Below the pieces are notes generated by a model. The model did no database searches. It saw nothing but the letters and a program-made list of their open reading frames with translations, and was not told the origin of the DNA. The position numbers and the translations under genes were made by a program. A stretch of DNA of 64,000 nt from Chelativorans salis (GTDB lineage: Bacteria; Pseudomonadota; Alphaproteobacteria; Rhizobiales; Rhizobiaceae): the NCBI RefSeq assembly GCF_025336525.1, contig NZ_JAOCZP010000008.1, positions 124,001-188,000 on the forward strand, in the 5' to 3' direction. Below, in pieces: positions 43,010 through 64,000 of this stretch (its first letter is position 1; the number at the start of each line of letters is the position of its first letter).

Positions 43010-43053
43010 GTGCTTGGGTTCGTGCCTCGTTATGGTGTTTGGTGATGCCGACG

Positions 43054-43230
43054 CCCTGCGGCGCCCCCCTCTGTCCTGCCGGACATCTCCCCCACGAGGG
43101 GGGAGATTGCGCCGTCGCGAAGACCTTCGCCAATCGTCGGCGCCGCAGGAAAAGCGACGGCGCGAACAGTCGGCTGATCTCCCTCCTTGTGGGGGAGATG
43201 TCCGGCGGGACAGAGGGGGGCGACATAGGG
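43054..43230. repeat. Palindromic repeat element, copy 1
   Basis: An inverted repeat of about 177 bases. The left arm starts near GCGCCCCCCTCTGTCC, contains GCCGGACATCTCCCCC and runs to 43107; the right arm (43177-43222) is its near-perfect reverse complement (about 42 of 47 bases). The outermost bases CCCTGCG and CATAGGG are also partly complementary. The centre is unrelated to the arms. A second copy with very similar arms lies inside cobG (62908-63075). Located between the binding-protein gene and its permease gene, where it will also form a strong mRNA hairpin. Non-coding; similar repeats are, to my knowledge, frequent in Mesorhizobium relatives. Confidence 0.88.
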
Positions 43231-43282
43231 TGCCTGCATCTCCGAACTTCCTGCTTTCACGCAGTCACGCCCCTCGCGCCTC

Positions 43283-57601: not shown

Positions 57602-58039
57602 TTGGCTGACGGCTTACCAGATCGGGCGGACTTCCCCTCAACAGACGCTTCCGGCGATGCCGGCCGAAACAGTTCGGTCACCGTCGTGGTCTGCAGTTCC
57701 TGCCGCCGCTCCACCGACCCCGAGAACCTGCCGCGCCCCGGCGCTTTGCTGGCCGAGAATACGGCCCGGGCCGCGAACGGCGCCGGCGTGCGCGTGCGCC
57801 AGGTTGCCTGCCTCGGCAACTGCAAGCGGGGCCTGAGCGCGGCAATCCTGCGCGAGGGGGCGTGGAGCTATGTCTTCGGTGAGCTCGAGCCCGACAGCGG
57901 GCCGGACCTTATCGCCGGTGCCGAGCTCTTCGCCAATTCGAGCGACGGCTTCATGCCGTTCCGGCAGCGCCCGCAATCGCTGAAGCGCGGCCTCATTGCG
58001 CGAATCCCCACAACCGACAGCCTGAAGGAGGTCCCATGA
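57602..58039 (+). CDS. DUF1636 metal-binding protein
   Basis: A protein of about 145 residues with four cysteines in the pattern VVVCSSCRR ... VACLGNCKRGLSAAI, resembling a thioredoxin-like [2Fe-2S] ferredoxin, the DUF1636 family often placed beside cobW. Start uncertain because no ATG is available: TTG 57602 has AAAGGA upstream; GTG 57578 is the alternative. Earlier in-frame starts lie inside the riboswitch and were rejected. It overlaps cobW by four bases, so translation is coupled. Role in cobalt or iron-sulfur supply to the cobalamin pathway is inferred. Confidence 0.83.
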   Translation: MADGLPDRADFPSTDASGDAGRNSSVTVVVCSSCRRSTDPENLPRPGALLAENTARAANGAGVRVRQVACLGNCKRGLSAAILREGAWSYVFGELEPDSGPDLIAGAELFANSSDGFMPFRQRPQSLKRGLIARIPTTDSLKEVP

Positions 58040-59073
58040 CCGTTTCGTTCGACCGCGTTCCCTGTACCGTCGTGACGGGTTTCCTGGGGGCCGGCAAGAC
58101 GACCCTTATCCGCAATGTGCTGGAGCGTGCGAACGGCAAGCGCATCGCCATCATCGTCAACGAATTCGGCGATGTCGGCATCGATGGCGAGATACTGAGG
58201 AACTGCGGTATCGAAGGCTGCGCCGACGATGACGTTCTGGAACTTGCCAACGGCTGCATCTGCTGCACCGTTGCCGATGATTTCGTGCCGGCGCTCGACA
58301 AGATCCTGTCGCGCGAGCCGAGGGTGGATCATATCCTCATCGAGACCTCGGGCCTGGCGCTGCCCAAGCCGCTGGTGCAGGCCTTCAACTGGCCGAACGT
58401 CAAAAACCGCGTCACCGTCGATGGTGTGGTGGCGGTTGTCGATGGGCCGGCGCTGGCGGAGGGCAAGGTTGCAACCGATATGGAGGCGCTGGAGCGGCAG
58501 CGCGCCGCCGACGAATCGCTTGACCATGACGACCCGGTGGAGGAGGTGTTCGAGGATCAGGTCGCCTGCGCTGATCTCATCATCCTGTCCAAGGCGGATC
58601 TTCTAGACGAGCAAGCGCTCGCCCGCGCCAAGGGCGCGATGGCCGGTCATCTATCGGACGCCGTGAAGGTCGTGCATGGGATGAACGGCAATGTCGATCC
58701 CAGCGTCCTTCTCGGCCTTGGCTTTGCCGTCGAGAACGACATCGAAAACCGCAAGACCCACCATGATGGCGTGCTCGACCACGAGCATGACGATTTCGAC
58801 ACCTTCGTTGTGGAACTGCCGGCCATCGCTAGTCCGGACGAACTGGCGCGCAAGGTGGCACTTGCGGCGGAAGCGGAAAACGTGCTGCGCCTGAAGGGAT
58901 TCGCCCATGTGGAAGGCAAGCCGATGCGGCTCCTCGTTCAGGCTGTGGGCCCGCGCGTGACACATCACTACGACCGCCCCTGGAAGGCGGACGAGGCGCC
59001 TTCGACGCGTCTTGTCGTCATCGGCCTCAAAGGCCTCGACAGGGCAGCGGTCGAGAAGCTCCTGGCGGCATGA
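58036..59073 (+). CDS. cobW: Cobalamin biosynthesis GTPase CobW
   Basis: A 345-residue G3E-family GTPase, probably a cobalt metallochaperone. Walker A is GFLGAGKTTLIRNVLERANG (residues about 15-34), the metal motif CxCC appears as NGCICCTVADDF, and the switch region ends with IILSKADLLDEQ. A histidine/aspartate-rich stretch (THHDGVLDHEHDDFD) lies in the C-terminal half as in other COG0523 proteins. It supplies cobalt to the CobNST chelatase according to the accepted model. It begins within the DUF1636 stop and ends five bases before cobN. Confidence 0.96.
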   Translation: MTVSFDRVPCTVVTGFLGAGKTTLIRNVLERANGKRIAIIVNEFGDVGIDGEILRNCGIEGCADDDVLELANGCICCTVADDFVPALDKILSREPRVDHILIETSGLALPKPLVQAFNWPNVKNRVTVDGVVAVVDGPALAEGKVATDMEALERQRAADESLDHDDPVEEVFEDQVACADLIILSKADLLDEQALARAKGAMAGHLSDAVKVVHGMNGNVDPSVLLGLGFAVENDIENRKTHHDGVLDHEHDDFDTFVVELPAIASPDELARKVALAAEAENVLRLKGFAHVEGKPMRLLVQAVGPRVTHHYDRPWKADEAPSTRLVVIGLKGLDRAAVEKLLAA

Positions 59074-59077
59074 GACG

Positions 59078-62000
59078 ATGCATATTCTCGCCACCAGTTC
59101 CGCCTCGCTGGAAGACCTGATCGACCCGGTCGATCTGCGCCAGACGCCGGCGGAGATGGTTGCGCTGTCGTTCACCGACAGCGATCTGGCGGCCATTGCG
59201 GCGGCATGGGGTGCGGGGCGGGAGACGTTGCCCTCGCTCCGGCTCGCAGCGCTCAGCGACCTGCGCCACCCCATGTCGGTCGATCTGTGGATTGACAGCG
59301 TTGCCTCCCACGCGAAGGTCGTGGTGGCACGGATTTTGGGCGGCTACGACTGGTGGCGCTACGGCTGCGACAGGCTGGCGGCGGTTGCGCGCGAGCGCGG
59401 CATCTCCCTCGTTCTGCTTCCTGGCGAATGCCGCGCGGATGACGAGCGGCTTGCCGCGCTCTCGACGGTCGGCACGGAGACTTGCGAAACTCTGCTCGGC
59501 TGTTTCCGCGAGGGCGGGCCGGAGAACATGACGTTGTTCGTGCGCCACATGGCGCGCCTCGCCGGCCATGCGATTGCGGCCGGCGAGGCGCGGCCGCTGG
59601 CGCGCGCGGGATATTACGCGCCCGGCGAAGGCATTGTCGATCTGGCGTACTATCGGTCGGTAGCCAGGTCCGGCCGGCCTGTCGTGCCGGTGTTGTTTTA
59701 CCGCTCCATGCTGCTTGCCAATGATGTGGCGCCTATCGACGCTCTTTTCCGTGCGCTCGACGAGAGGGGCATCCTGGCGGTGCCCGTTTTTGTCTCGACG
59801 CTGCGCGACGCTTCCGCCCGGCAGCTTCTAGACGAGGTGGTGAAGACGTTACGATCTGCTGCTCTCATCACGACCACCGCCTTTGCGATCGGCATGGAAG
59901 GTGAGGACGAGAGTCTATTCGACAGCCTCGGCCTGCCGGTCTTCCAGGTCGCTGTCGCGACAACCAGGCGCGATGCGTGGGAGAGCGGCCAGCGGGGCAT
60001 GGCACCTGCCGATCTTGCCATGCATGTGGTGCTGCCCGAACTGGACGGCCGCATCATGGCCGGGGCGATTTCGTTCAAGGACAGGCAGACGCCGGACCCG
60101 GCACTGGCGGTTAGCCTGCAGGTCAACCGGCCGGAGCCGGACCGGGTGGCGCAGGTGGCCGAGCGGCTGGCGGCGTTTTTGAAACTGCAATCCACACCGC
60201 CCGCAGAGCGGCAGATCGCCATCATCCTGCCGGATTATCCGGCGGCAACCGGGCGTAGTGGTTATGCCGTCGGACTCGACGTGCCGCAAAGCGCCATCGC
60301 CATGCTGCATGACCTGAAGGCGGAAGGCTATCGGGCAGTGGATATTCCCGAAACCCCACGTGCCCTGATGCGCCTTCTGGAGCGGGAGAGGGCCGGCATT
60401 GCCGCCGAAGATTATGCCGCTGCCTTCGCACAGCTGCCGCAGGAGGCGCGCAATGCGGTGGAAGCCGCCTGGGGCGCGCCTGGAGGCGAGGACTTCTGTT
60501 TCCGCACGGCCCGCTTCGGCAACGTCACGGTGGCTTTTGCGCCCGACCGTGGCCGCTCGGCAGATCGCAGGATGGACTATCATGATCCGGTCCTGCCACC
60601 CGGCCATCCGCTCATCGCCTTCGGTGTTTGGCTGCGCGAAGGACTGGGCTGCCATGCACTTGTCCATCTGGGAGCACATGGCACTCTGGAATGGCTGCCG
60701 GGCAAGGCCGTGGCATTGAGCGCTGCTTGTTTCCCCGAGCTCATGGCCGGCCCGCTGCCGGTCATCTATCCCTTCATCGTCAGCAATCCGGGTGAGGCGG
60801 CGCAGGCCAAGCGGCGGATCGCAGCTGTGACGCTGGGCCATCTAACGCCGCCGCTGGTCGGCGCCGGCCTGAGCGAGGAGCAGCAGGCGCTGGAGCGGCT
60901 GGTCGACGAATATGCGCAGGCCGATGGCCTCGACCGACGCCGCCGCGACAGGCTGGCAAAGCTGATTGTGGAGACGGCGCAGAAGACCGGCCTTGCTCGG
61001 GAGGCTGGCGTTGACGAGAGGGACGATCCGGAAGCCGCACTGCTGCGCATCGATGCCTGGCTCTGTGACCTCAAGGACTTCGCTATCAAGGACGGACTTC
61101 ACATCTACGGCCGCGCAGCGGATGGTGAGGCGGACCCGCTGAGGATGGCGAGTGCGGAGCGCGAGCGCGCCGCGTTTATGGCTGCGCTGGATGGCAAGCG
61201 GGTGCGGCCCGGGCCGTCGGGCGCGCCGTCGCGCGGTCGTACCGACGTGCTGCCTACGGGCCGCAACCTTTTCACTGCCGATCCGCGTACGCTGCCTACT
61301 CCCACCGCCGTGGCGCTCGGCACTACCGCTGCCGATGAGATCGTGCGGGCATATCTGCAGGACCATGGCGATTACCCGTGCGCGCTGGTGCTCGACCTGT
61401 GGGGCAGCGCCAGCTTGCGCACGGGCGGTGAAGAGATCGCGCAAGGGCTGGCGCTGATGGGCTGCCGGCCGCAATGGGATGCCGCCACCGGGCGCGTGAC
61501 CGGGATCGAGGTGCTACCCCCCGCCGTCATCGGGCGACCTCGCATCGACGTCACCTGGCGCATCTCGGGACTTTTTCGCGACATGTTCCCGACACAGATC
61601 GCCTTGATCGACGCAGCCATAGCCGCCGTCGCCGCGCGCGACGAAACACAGGACGAGAACCCGCTTGCCGCCGCGAGCCGTAGCGAGGGAAGGGTGCCGG
61701 CTCGCATCTTCGGATCCGCCCCCGGCACCTATGGCGCTGGTATCGAGGAGCGCCTTGCGCGTGGCGACTGGCAAGACCGCTCGGAACTCGGCAAGGCCTA
61801 TCTCGACGCTGCCTCCCACGTCTTCGGTGGGGCGGAAGGGGAAGGGCAGGCAGCCCCCGGTACCTTCGCGGAGCGTGTCGGCGGAGCCGATCTGCTTGTG
61901 CATACGGGAGATGATCCTGGCCGTGATATCCTCGAGGGTTCCGCCGACGTGGCCTTCATCGGCGGCTTCTCCGCCGCACTTGCTGCCCTTGGCGGCAAGG

Positions 62001-62419
62001 CGGATCTCGTCGTGCTCGATACGACAGATCCGGAACGACCGCGCGCTCGCTCGCTGGCCGCAGCCGTTACGCGCGCCGTGCGGGCTCGCGCGCTCAACCC
62101 GCGCTTCATCGATGGGCAGTTACGGCACGGACCGCGCGGGGCGGCTGAATTTGCAGAGACCGTGGATCGTCTCGTCGGCTTTGCAGAGACGACGAATGCG
62201 ATACCCGGTGCGCTGATCGAGGCGGTGCATGCGGCTTATCTGGAAGATGAGCGCGTGCGCGACTTTCTGCTCCGGGAGAATCCCGCTGCCCTCCGTGCCA
62301 TTGCCGAGCGCTTTGCCGACGCGCGCCGCCGCGGCCTCTGGCACCCCCGCCGCAATGCGGTGGACAACGGTCTTGCGGGACTGATCGCGGAAGCGCGCAG
62401 GCAGGAGGAAGCCGCATGA
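59078..62419 (+). CDS. cobN: Cobaltochelatase subunit CobN
   Basis: A 1113-residue large subunit of the ATP-dependent aerobic cobaltochelatase CobNST, which inserts cobalt into hydrogenobyrinic acid a,c-diamide. It begins MHILATSSASLEDLIDPVDL at 59078, as expected from the family; a longer reading to 59012 overlaps cobW. Conserved stretches include HLGAHGTLEWLPGKAVALS, PVIYPFIVSNPGEAAQAKRR, RISGLFRDMFPTQIALID and FGSAPGTYGAGIEERL. The protein is somewhat shorter than the Paracoccus enzyme (about 1275) but all core motifs are there. CobS and CobT are not in the window. It overlaps cobG by four bases. Confidence 0.96.
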   Translation: MHILATSSASLEDLIDPVDLRQTPAEMVALSFTDSDLAAIAAAWGAGRETLPSLRLAALSDLRHPMSVDLWIDSVASHAKVVVARILGGYDWWRYGCDRLAAVARERGISLVLLPGECRADDERLAALSTVGTETCETLLGCFREGGPENMTLFVRHMARLAGHAIAAGEARPLARAGYYAPGEGIVDLAYYRSVARSGRPVVPVLFYRSMLLANDVAPIDALFRALDERGILAVPVFVSTLRDASARQLLDEVVKTLRSAALITTTAFAIGMEGEDESLFDSLGLPVFQVAVATTRRDAWESGQRGMAPADLAMHVVLPELDGRIMAGAISFKDRQTPDPALAVSLQVNRPEPDRVAQVAERLAAFLKLQSTPPAERQIAIILPDYPAATGRSGYAVGLDVPQSAIAMLHDLKAEGYRAVDIPETPRALMRLLERERAGIAAEDYAAAFAQLPQEARNAVEAAWGAPGGEDFCFRTARFGNVTVAFAPDRGRSADRRMDYHDPVLPPGHPLIAFGVWLREGLGCHALVHLGAHGTLEWLPGKAVALSAACFPELMAGPLPVIYPFIVSNPGEAAQAKRRIAAVTLGHLTPPLVGAGLSEEQQALERLVDEYAQADGLDRRRRDRLAKLIVETAQKTGLAREAGVDERDDPEAALLRIDAWLCDLKDFAIKDGLHIYGRAADGEADPLRMASAERERAAFMAALDGKRVRPGPSGAPSRGRTDVLPTGRNLFTADPRTLPTPTAVALGTTAADEIVRAYLQDHGDYPCALVLDLWGSASLRTGGEEIAQGLALMGCRPQWDAATGRVTGIEVLPPAVIGRPRIDVTWRISGLFRDMFPTQIALIDAAIAAVAARDETQDENPLAAASRSEGRVPARIFGSAPGTYGAGIEERLARGDWQDRSELGKAYLDAASHVFGGAEGEGQAAPGTFAERVGGADLLVHTGDDPGRDILEGSADVAFIGGFSAALAALGGKADLVVLDTTDPERPRARSLAAAVTRAVRARALNPRFIDGQLRHGPRGAAEFAETVDRLVGFAETTNAIPGALIEAVHAAYLEDERVRDFLLRENPAALRAIAERFADARRRGLWHPRRNAVDNGLAGLIAEARRQEEAA

Positions 62420-63843
62420 GCCTTCGCCGCGGTGTCTGCCCCTCGCTTTCCGCGCCGATGCAAACCGGCGATGGACTGCTTGTGCGCCTCAACCCGGTGG
62501 AGGGGCATCTTTCTGGACGCCAACTGGCGGGGGTTGCGCGGGCGGCCGAGAAGTTTGGCAACGGCATTCTGGAGATCACCGCGCGCGGCAGCCTGCAGGT
62601 GCGGGGGCTGACGGCGGAGAGCGCGGCCGCGCTTGGCGCGGAGGTGGACGCGCTGGGGATAGGGGTGCGCTGGGGGCTGCCGATCGACAGTAGCCCGCTT
62701 GCCGGGCTGGACGCCGAGGAGGTTGCCGATCCGCGTGGGCTCGCGCGGGAGATTTGGGAGCGATGCGAAGAACTGGGGCTGACTTCGCGGCTGGGGCCCA
62801 AGGTTTCGGTAACCGTCGATGGTGGCGGGGTGCTGGGGCTTGGCGGCGTGCTTGCGGACGTGAAGCTGGAGGCAGTGACCGGCGGGGAAGGTTCTGGTGG
62901 GGCAGCACTCCTTCGCGCCCCCCTCTGTCCTGCCGGACATCTCCCCCACAAGGAGGGAGATCGGCAATCATCGAGGCTTTACCGAATCTCAGAAGAAGGT
63001 GCCGACGCGAGCGGCAGACCAATCTCCCCCCTCGTGGGGGAGATATCCGGCAGGACAGAGGGGGGCGCCATAGGGCATACCGTTTCCGACGGGAGTACCA
63101 TCACCTGGCTCCTTCGCGTCGGCAGCACTTCTGCCACTGCCCGCGACCTGGGCTGTTTCGCGCAAGCCGATGCAGCAGAAGCTGCGGTTCGCATCCTCAA
63201 AGCCATTGCCGAACTCGGCGCTGAAGCGCGGGCGCGGGATCTTTCCGATAAGGATTTGGCGGCGGTCACGGGCAGCGAGCCGGTATCCAGCGTCACAGCA
63301 GTAGAGCCTATGCGCCCGCCGGTGGGGAGGTTCGCACTTGTCGGCGGCAGAAAGGCGAGGGGTTCCGTGCTTTCTTATGGGCAGATCGAAAGTGGTGCAC
63401 TTTCCTTCTTTGCAGAAGCCCTTGGCGAAGAGAGGAGCGTGTGCCTCGCGCGCGGCAGGGGCCTCATCGTCCTTGACGTGGCAGAGCACGAGGAGGCGGC
63501 ACTTGTGGGTGCCGCGGAGCGCCTGGGCTTTGTGACGAGGCCCGACGATCCGCGCCTTTCCATCGCCGTTTGCGCGGGCAAGCCGGCCTGTGCCTCGGCA
63601 CACCTGGCCACGAGGCACCTTGCCGACCGGATTGTGGCAAGCCGGCCAGACCTGCTTGACGGCTCCTATCACTTACAACTCTCAGGCTGCGGCAAGCAGT
63701 GTGCCCGTCCCTCCGGCCCTAGGGTAACGCTGGCGGGTGTCGAGGGGGGCTTTGACATCAGCGCTGAAGGCACCGCCATCCCATCCGATCTCGAAGCTCT
63801 GCTTTCGGAGCTGGCCGAGGAACAATTCAGGCAACGCCCATGA
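62416..63843 (+). CDS. cobG: Precorrin-3B synthase with an in-frame repeat insertion
   Basis: A 475-residue enzyme that oxidises precorrin-3A to precorrin-3B in the aerobic cobalamin pathway. It has two ferredoxin-nitrite/sulfite-reductase-like halves; the iron-sulfur/siroheme-type cysteines are C-x5-C in CAGKPACASAHLATRHLAD and C-x3-C in LSGCGKQCARPSGPRV. Codons 165-220 are derived from a palindromic repeat (62908-63075) that leaves the frame open; the remainder is about 419 residues. ATGA overlaps with cobN and cobH show the operon is tight. Whether the interrupted enzyme is active cannot be read; the intact downstream frame argues for it. Confidence 0.9.
   Translation: MSLRRGVCPSLSAPMQTGDGLLVRLNPVEGHLSGRQLAGVARAAEKFGNGILEITARGSLQVRGLTAESAAALGAEVDALGIGVRWGLPIDSSPLAGLDAEEVADPRGLAREIWERCEELGLTSRLGPKVSVTVDGGGVLGLGGVLADVKLEAVTGGEGSGGAALLRAPLCPAGHLPHKEGDRQSSRLYRISEEGADASGRPISPLVGEISGRTEGGAIGHTVSDGSTITWLLRVGSTSATARDLGCFAQADAAEAAVRILKAIAELGAEARARDLSDKDLAAVTGSEPVSSVTAVEPMRPPVGRFALVGGRKARGSVLSYGQIESGALSFFAEALGEERSVCLARGRGLIVLDVAEHEEAALVGAAERLGFVTRPDDPRLSIAVCAGKPACASAHLATRHLADRIVASRPDLLDGSYHLQLSGCGKQCARPSGPRVTLAGVEGGFDISAEGTAIPSDLEALLSELAEEQFRQRP
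62908..63075. repeat. Palindromic repeat element, copy 2, inside cobG
   Basis: A 168-base inverted repeat related to copy 1 (43054-43230). The left arm begins GCGCCCCCCTCTGTCC at 62915; the right arm ends GGGGGGCGC at 63068, followed by CATAGGG, which also follows copy 1. The length chosen from symmetric ends is exactly 56 codons, in phase with cobG. The central part differs between the copies. Exact borders are uncertain by a few bases. It encodes a cysteine- and glycine-containing insert in CobG. Confidence 0.85.
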
Positions 63844-64000
63844 CAACCGATTACATCCGCGACGGCACGGCCATCTACGAGAAATCCTTCGCCATCATCA
63901 GGGCGGAGGCGGATCTTTCACGCTTCTCCGAGGCGCAGGCGGATGTGGCGATGCGCATGATCCATGCCTGCGGGCTAGTCGAGGCGGCGCGTGATTTCGT
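63840..64000 (+). CDS. cobH: Precorrin-8X methylmutase, N-terminal part
   Basis: The first 53 codons of cobH, cut by the window edge. It begins MTTDYIRDGTAIYEKSFAI and contains RAEADLSRFSEAQADVAMRMIHACG, the well-conserved N-terminus of precorrin-8X methylmutase, which moves a methyl group to yield hydrogenobyrinic acid. It overlaps the cobG stop by four bases (ATGA). No judgment is possible on the missing remainder. Confidence 0.94.
   Translation, partial: MTTDYIRDGTAIYEKSFAIIRAEADLSRFSEAQADVAMRMIHACGLVEAARDF

Follow-up and report, generated by a model that had tools for sequence, protein, structure and literature searches.

The gene for precorrin-3B synthase (cobG) of Chelativorans salis contains a multi-copy palindromic repeat that lies in frame within the coding sequence. 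We consider it likely that a MITE-like palindrome was inserted in cobG between two strands of the encoded protein, that it is near-neutral there, and that such copies are subject to arm correction, loop flips and central deletion, as in Mesorhizobium. The window analyzed is a stretch of 64,000 nucleotides of the C. salis genome, in which cobG occupies positions 62416..63843 of the + strand. The 475-aa product has the nitrite/sulfite reductase fold and matches TIGR02435 with 287.8 bits (cut-off 234.8) in two stretches, the better of which covers aa 4-159. A sequence-only reading of this DNA had described a tightly overlapping cob operon, and this holds true. On the same strand, cobW (58036..59073; TIGR02475, 554.1 bits) and the cobaltochelatase subunit gene cobN (59078..62419; NF008973, 1565.6 bits) precede cobG; the 3' end of cobN overlaps the cobG start, the start of cobH (precorrin-8X methylmutase, 63840..64000) overlaps the cobG stop, and cobI follows beyond the window end. 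CobZ was considered as a substitute for CobG and rejected: the sole CobZ-like match above the cut-off is TcuA, located beside TcuB.

The Palindromic Element in cobG

The element extends over 62905..63078 of the + strand, i.e., 174 nt or 58 codons, a multiple of three, and the cobG frame stays open across the whole of it. It comprises a 5' arm (62915..62964), a loop (62965..63018) and a 3' arm (63019..63068), all given for the + strand. The arms are 50 nt long and 92% complementary, the loop measures 54 nt, and both arms lack stops in each of the six frames, the 3' arm being read as ISPLVGEISGRTEGG. The best pair of 50-nt arms in an 801-nt region has 46 matches, where 40 dinucleotide shuffles gave no more than 34, and the sequence occurs at 24 places in the genome, which bears out the palindromic repeat that had been proposed from the letters. 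Its ends, at about 62905 and 63078, were obtained from an alignment of 18 copies together with the empty site in C. alearense. The element had earlier been placed at 62908-63075, as an in-frame span of 56 codons with borders coinciding with codon phase. The open frame and a length divisible by three stand, whereas the extent had to be revised to the 58 codons given above and the border at a codon edge turned out to be a choice of border.

The predicted RNA fold of positions 62900-63085 reaches -116.8 kcal/mol with z = -9.1, a value equaled by none of 200 shuffles, in agreement with the strong hairpin in the mRNA that had been anticipated. An Rfam scan of the window from 58000 to 64000 returned only matches below the gathering score. 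In its traits the element resembles a MITE: the inverted repeats extend to its ends, it falls in the 100-200 bp class, and it is too short for a transposase. Inspection of the filled/empty cobG pair by eye revealed no clear target-site duplication. The loop has the same orientation as that of C. xinjiangense in the alignment; if inverted in frame it acquires 2 stops, that is, the window loop itself could flip only with a gain of stops.

Distribution among Relatives of Chelativorans

The hinge of CobG at which the element is located was compared between relatives. C. alearense lacks the element, its cobG being 174 nt shorter, and C. xinjiangense carries the same element at the same hinge. Twelve other aligned CobGs have no insert there. 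This is the pattern the sequence-only reading needed. One could also take the segment for an ancestral portion of ordinary CobG, as it is present in two species of the Chelativorans group. This reading has virtually no chance of being correct, given that C. alearense and the 12 other CobGs are without the segment and that the same sequence is found at 23 other genomic places. An ancestral CobG domain was accordingly ruled out by the empty hinges in relatives and the multi-copy nature of the sequence.

The history within the group is less direct. The cobG genes of C. xinjiangense and C. alearense share an identity of 0.875-0.885, and either of them shares 0.80-0.85 with the window gene. Since C. 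alearense is thus nearer to C. xinjiangense than to the window species, its empty hinge must be explained by a subsequent loss, by two separate insertions or by transfer of the gene. In the simplest history, the element was inserted once, in the ancestor of the window species and C. xinjiangense, and C. alearense subsequently lost it in frame; either of the other two histories may apply instead. A third congener (G007) has a palindrome of a different family in frame at the same CobG hinge, and its genome contains related sequence at five further places.

Location in the CobG Fold and Selection

In an AlphaFold model of the window CobG, built with 32 CobGs, the mean pLDDT is 81.5, and values below 50 are confined to residues 1-14 and to residues 159-220, which correspond to the insert. 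The latter lies between the strands 149-156 and 228-235. The model is closest to nitrite and sulfite reductases, with 1zj8 as the best match. A structural model had been suggested as a check on whether the insert is a surface loop, and it favors a related picture: the insert is the only internal stretch with pLDDT below 50 and is situated between two strands. It is thus predicted to be a floppy, disordered stretch within a confidently modeled CobG fold. Similarly, the model of M. ciceri CobG shows disorder only at its insert (224-282) and at the termini.

The dN/dS ratio in the cobG flanks is 0.19-0.27 when the window gene is compared with two relatives, and 0.26 and 0.41 between those two relatives; in the insert it is 0.39 over 52 aligned codons. 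These ratios indicate that the cobG flanks are under purifying selection.

Element Copies outside cobG

The element family gives 52 matches in the window genome, grouped into 24 places including cobG, one of which is a short fragment; this count may be low, as 40 of the 43 first-look candidates were scored. A second copy is located in the window itself (43037..43247, with no strand assigned) and has inverted arms of 71 nt that are 85% complementary; the ORF spanning it has no Pfam match, and one of the matches (G000:C18:167053-167222, equivalent to window 43053-43222) falls within this copy. At 10 of the 24 places, cobG included, an open frame crosses the element and continues for 60 nt or more on either side. 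The other nine places have 12 such frames, and none of the 10 scanned with Pfam has a domain on both sides. Copies inside genes are therefore regarded as rare in the window genome, because cobG is the only one of the 24 places where recognized protein homology flanks the element on both sides. A search for further copies within genes had been recommended earlier; the cobG copy is indeed in frame, but the other 23 places show no recognized two-sided homology. Near position 59476 of contig C18, a copy precedes the domain of a NicO nickel-transport gene (L007:438-1772).

The comparison with relatives covered 80 loci, some of which represent one place twice. Here 33 frames run through the element and extend 210 nt or more beyond it in both directions, and seven of these are at cobG. 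Twenty of the 26 non-cobG frames were scanned: two are ABC ATPases, two (L216, L223) carry domains to one side of the element only, and 16 have none. The two ATPases, of the oligopeptide type, come from two Mesorhizobium genomes (L175:908-1954 and L177:866-1897), with ABC_tran matching in two stretches around the element. Reverse-complementing raises the identity of their loops from 0.57 to 0.72, which is suggestive of an inverted pair; it was left out of the flip count given below.

The Element in Mesorhizobium CobG

Among 119 distinct CobG frames sampled from near relatives, 46 show a full-element pattern in the second linker of CobG. The Mesorhizobium cobG element belongs to the window family, yet it sits at this second linker and not at the window hinge. 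Its 3' arm shares the reading frame of the window copy (ISPLVGEMSGRTEGG), and its 5' arm uses a different one. Only 47 of the 552 arm readings from the 46 elements contain a stop vs. a fraction of 0.279 in shuffled arms. The lengths of all 46 loops fall in one class modulo 3, a class to which 15 of 69 non-cobG loops belong. Taken together with the different palindrome family in the hinge of the third Chelativorans congener, the position of the window family in the second linker makes CobG a repeated target. Two other loci (L040, L080) have in-frame insertions of other, repeat-like sequence in the second linker.

Not all copies are intact. In 11 further frames (L065, L067, L069, L070, L072, L076, L081, L088, L095, L104 and L124) in-frame stubs are present, and among the stubs with DNA inspected by eye, those of L081, L088, L095 and L104 have short arms that are perfectly complementary. 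A genus-wide search found CobG in 142 of 146 Mesorhizobium genomes, and 40 cobG regions were drawn from it, picked mostly for few contigs. In four of these 40 (L304, L306, L309 and L313, all from few-contig genomes) the frame is broken in or beside the element or stub; these breaks may be real or may be sequencing errors.

Orientation of the Loop

When aligned to one reference, the loops of the 46 Mesorhizobium cobG elements occur in two orientations, 22 A and 24 B. They are 62-92 nt long, with 30 at 65 and 12 at 83. Several closely related loops are opposite: the identity after and before reverse-complementing one member is 0.95 vs. 0.60 for L120/L133, 0.92 vs. 0.55 for L126/L131, and 0.92 vs. 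0.57 for L079/L085. The 40 additional regions yielded 32 loops, nine of which duplicate loops already in the first set, and the resulting 69 distinct loops are divided 35/34 between the orientations, with a median identity of 0.62 across all pairs. Clusters of mixed orientation number 4 of 9 at an identity threshold of 0.90, 4 of 10 at 0.85 and 3 of 9 at 0.80. The pair L099/L316 merges into the L079 cluster at 0.87, and the fourth mixed cluster at 0.85 contains L306, in which the frame is broken. Since the number of mixed clusters varies with the threshold, we put the separate loop flips suggested by these comparisons in Mesorhizobium cobG at three or four at least.

It could be argued that inverted repeats were misassembled and that the opposite orientations are artifacts of this. 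Such errors would be favored by the draft state of many genomes and by arms that are nearly the same over 45 nt. Genomes of at most five contigs nevertheless show both orientations (12 A and 11 B among 23 with a recognized loop), and one few-contig opposite pair, L298/L316, has identities of 0.87 after and 0.52 before reverse-complementing. The occurrence of both orientations in such genomes makes this account very unlikely.

A loop might also have been replaced, through ectopic gene conversion, by one from another genomic copy rather than inverted in place; each genome offers dozens of possible donor copies. The M. ciceri cobG loop shows an identity of at most 0.69 to 23 other loops recovered from its own genome, an incomplete set of copies, as compared to 0.85-0.92 to six hand-picked near cobG loops of other genomes. 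Likewise, the L120 loop is 0.90 and 0.84 identical to two orthologues and 0.76 to the next locus. As the M. ciceri loop is nearer to cobG loops elsewhere than to the loops of its own genome, an ectopic source is judged unlikely, and inversion in place is retained as the preferred reading.

A tree of the cobG flanks requires at least 16 orientation changes over 44 labeled rows, against a mean of 14.4 (range 10-20, n = 200) for shuffled labels. In this tree 17 of 55 inner branches are starred, and 13 rows without recognized linker edges were left out, including the element-bearing L083 and L138. Since orientation fits the tree no better than shuffled labels do, the tree neither dates nor counts the flips, and the loop clusters were used for the count instead. 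The misfit reflects either frequent flipping or a poor tree.

Of the 46 loops, 40 would stay open if flipped, vs. 0.69-0.71 in two controls. This excess is modest and the loops are related, so that openness in both orientations is weak evidence of selection for it. A bolder proposal is that Mesorhizobium CobG contains an invertible coding segment, in which about 20-30 residues are flipped back and forth by template switching, often enough for selection to keep both directions readable. We regard this as doubtful. Were it so, a single species might hold both protein forms, a possibility raised by the lack of fit between orientation and the flank tree.

Matching of the Arms

The arm tips are identical in 26 of the 46 Mesorhizobium cobG elements, as compared to a mean of 6.0 and a maximum of 15 in 5000 shuffles. 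For whole arms the contrast is modest, the mismatch being 0.044 within elements vs. 0.060-0.068 between species. Outside cobG, the arms of 25 M. ciceri copies have a mismatch of 0.074 within an element and 0.285 between copies, and those of 18 other copies 0.054 and 0.165, respectively, where register slips may inflate the between-copy values. The corresponding figure for the window-genome copies (12 of 17) was set aside, at least three rows being apparently out of register. Because arms outside cobG also match better within than between copies, the matching appears to be inherent in the repeat.

This bears on the suggestion that the hairpin is kept for a role in the cob mRNA or DNA, such as an RNase III site, a translational pause or protein binding, so that selection conserves the arms. 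The strong predicted RNA hairpin and the conservation and co-variation of the arm tips over Mesorhizobium cobG are what such a role would lead one to expect, but arms match within elements outside cobG as well, 11 Mesorhizobium frames retain stubs only, C. alearense does without the element, and its position varies between genera. We find a maintained hairpin function quite unlikely and prefer a near-neutral insertion.

Proposed History of the Element

According to the preferred reading, a multi-copy MITE-like repeat of the window genome would have inserted in cobG, most simply once, in a shared ancestor. The copy would have been tolerated owing to arms that are stop-free in all frames and a turn that can accommodate a disordered loop of 58 residues. 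As the stop-free arms and the tolerant turn would let a copy survive, we infer that the element is near-neutral, a piece of selfish DNA in a B12 gene. Its later fate may be read from the Mesorhizobium linker, where the arms appear to correct each other, the loop appears to switch orientation, and the center seems to be lost by deletion, in most cases in frame, so that short palindromic stubs persist. The engine is most likely replication template switching on the hairpin, a step deduced from its products; a switch of template from one arm to the other agrees with the loop flips and the co-varying arm tips of Mesorhizobium. Palindromes are also known to lose their central part by deletion.

Comparison with Known Systems

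The best-known cases of palindromes in protein-coding sequence are those of Rickettsia and Wolbachia. The present data extend them to Rhizobiales with larger genomes, in which CobG is struck repeatedly. At one CobG site of Mesorhizobium, copies occur whole, inverted or with part of their sequence deleted. How a selfish insert fares in a protein, and how fast long template-switch inversions arise, should therefore be directly testable in culturable bacteria. A literature search that covered few subscription papers returned no report of the element in CobG, nor of an inverted loop in any coding palindrome of bacteria.

In the parts of the Rickettsia and Wolbachia accounts consulted, palindromic elements of 100-150 bp are described in frame in conserved genes, some insertions are orthologous, the same part of biotin ligase is struck in the two genera, and small repeats of other kinds are mentioned as fused in frame in other bacteria (PMC10969869, PMC2229807, PMC3767692). 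The likeness is that a palindrome lies in frame in conserved genes, cobG here and cobG as well as the oligopeptide-type ABC ATPase in Mesorhizobium; the element is also multi-copy, at 24 places, and with 174 nt slightly longer than the about 100-150 bp of the Rickettsia palindromic elements. In contrast, the host belongs to another order of Alphaproteobacteria, frequent location in genes is not seen (1 of 24 places with two-sided homology), and those portions of the accounts contain no loop inversion inside genes. The parallel drawn in the sequence-only reading consequently survives in the way the element works, but the element is not filed among the Rickettsia palindromic elements, as its location in genes is rare and the likeness noted is one of behavior.

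Multi-copy palindromes of rhizobia, namely RIME, the AB and C motifs and Sm repeats, are intergenic as far as the consulted part of the source describes them (PMC2573895). They resemble the present family in being multi-copy palindromes of rhizobia and, compared by description only, differ in that intergenic location. In the chloroplast trnH-psbA spacer, frequent inversions are tied to palindromic sequence in the section consulted (PMC2903610); inversion at palindromes is common to both systems, and the spacer is non-coding.

A parallel in process comes from yeast coding sequence, where, in the portion of the study consulted, arm homogenization and spacer inversion are attributed to template switching, the inversions are substitutions of 2-5 bp with up to two residue changes, and long inversions in proteins are judged unlikely to be neutral (PMC8604942). 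Quasi-palindrome mutagenesis of this kind and the Mesorhizobium cobG elements have in common arm homogenization, spacer inversion and a coding location. In comparison with the 2-5 bp described there for yeast, the Mesorhizobium inversions span 62-92 nt, about 20-30 residues, and take place in a bacterial repeat family.
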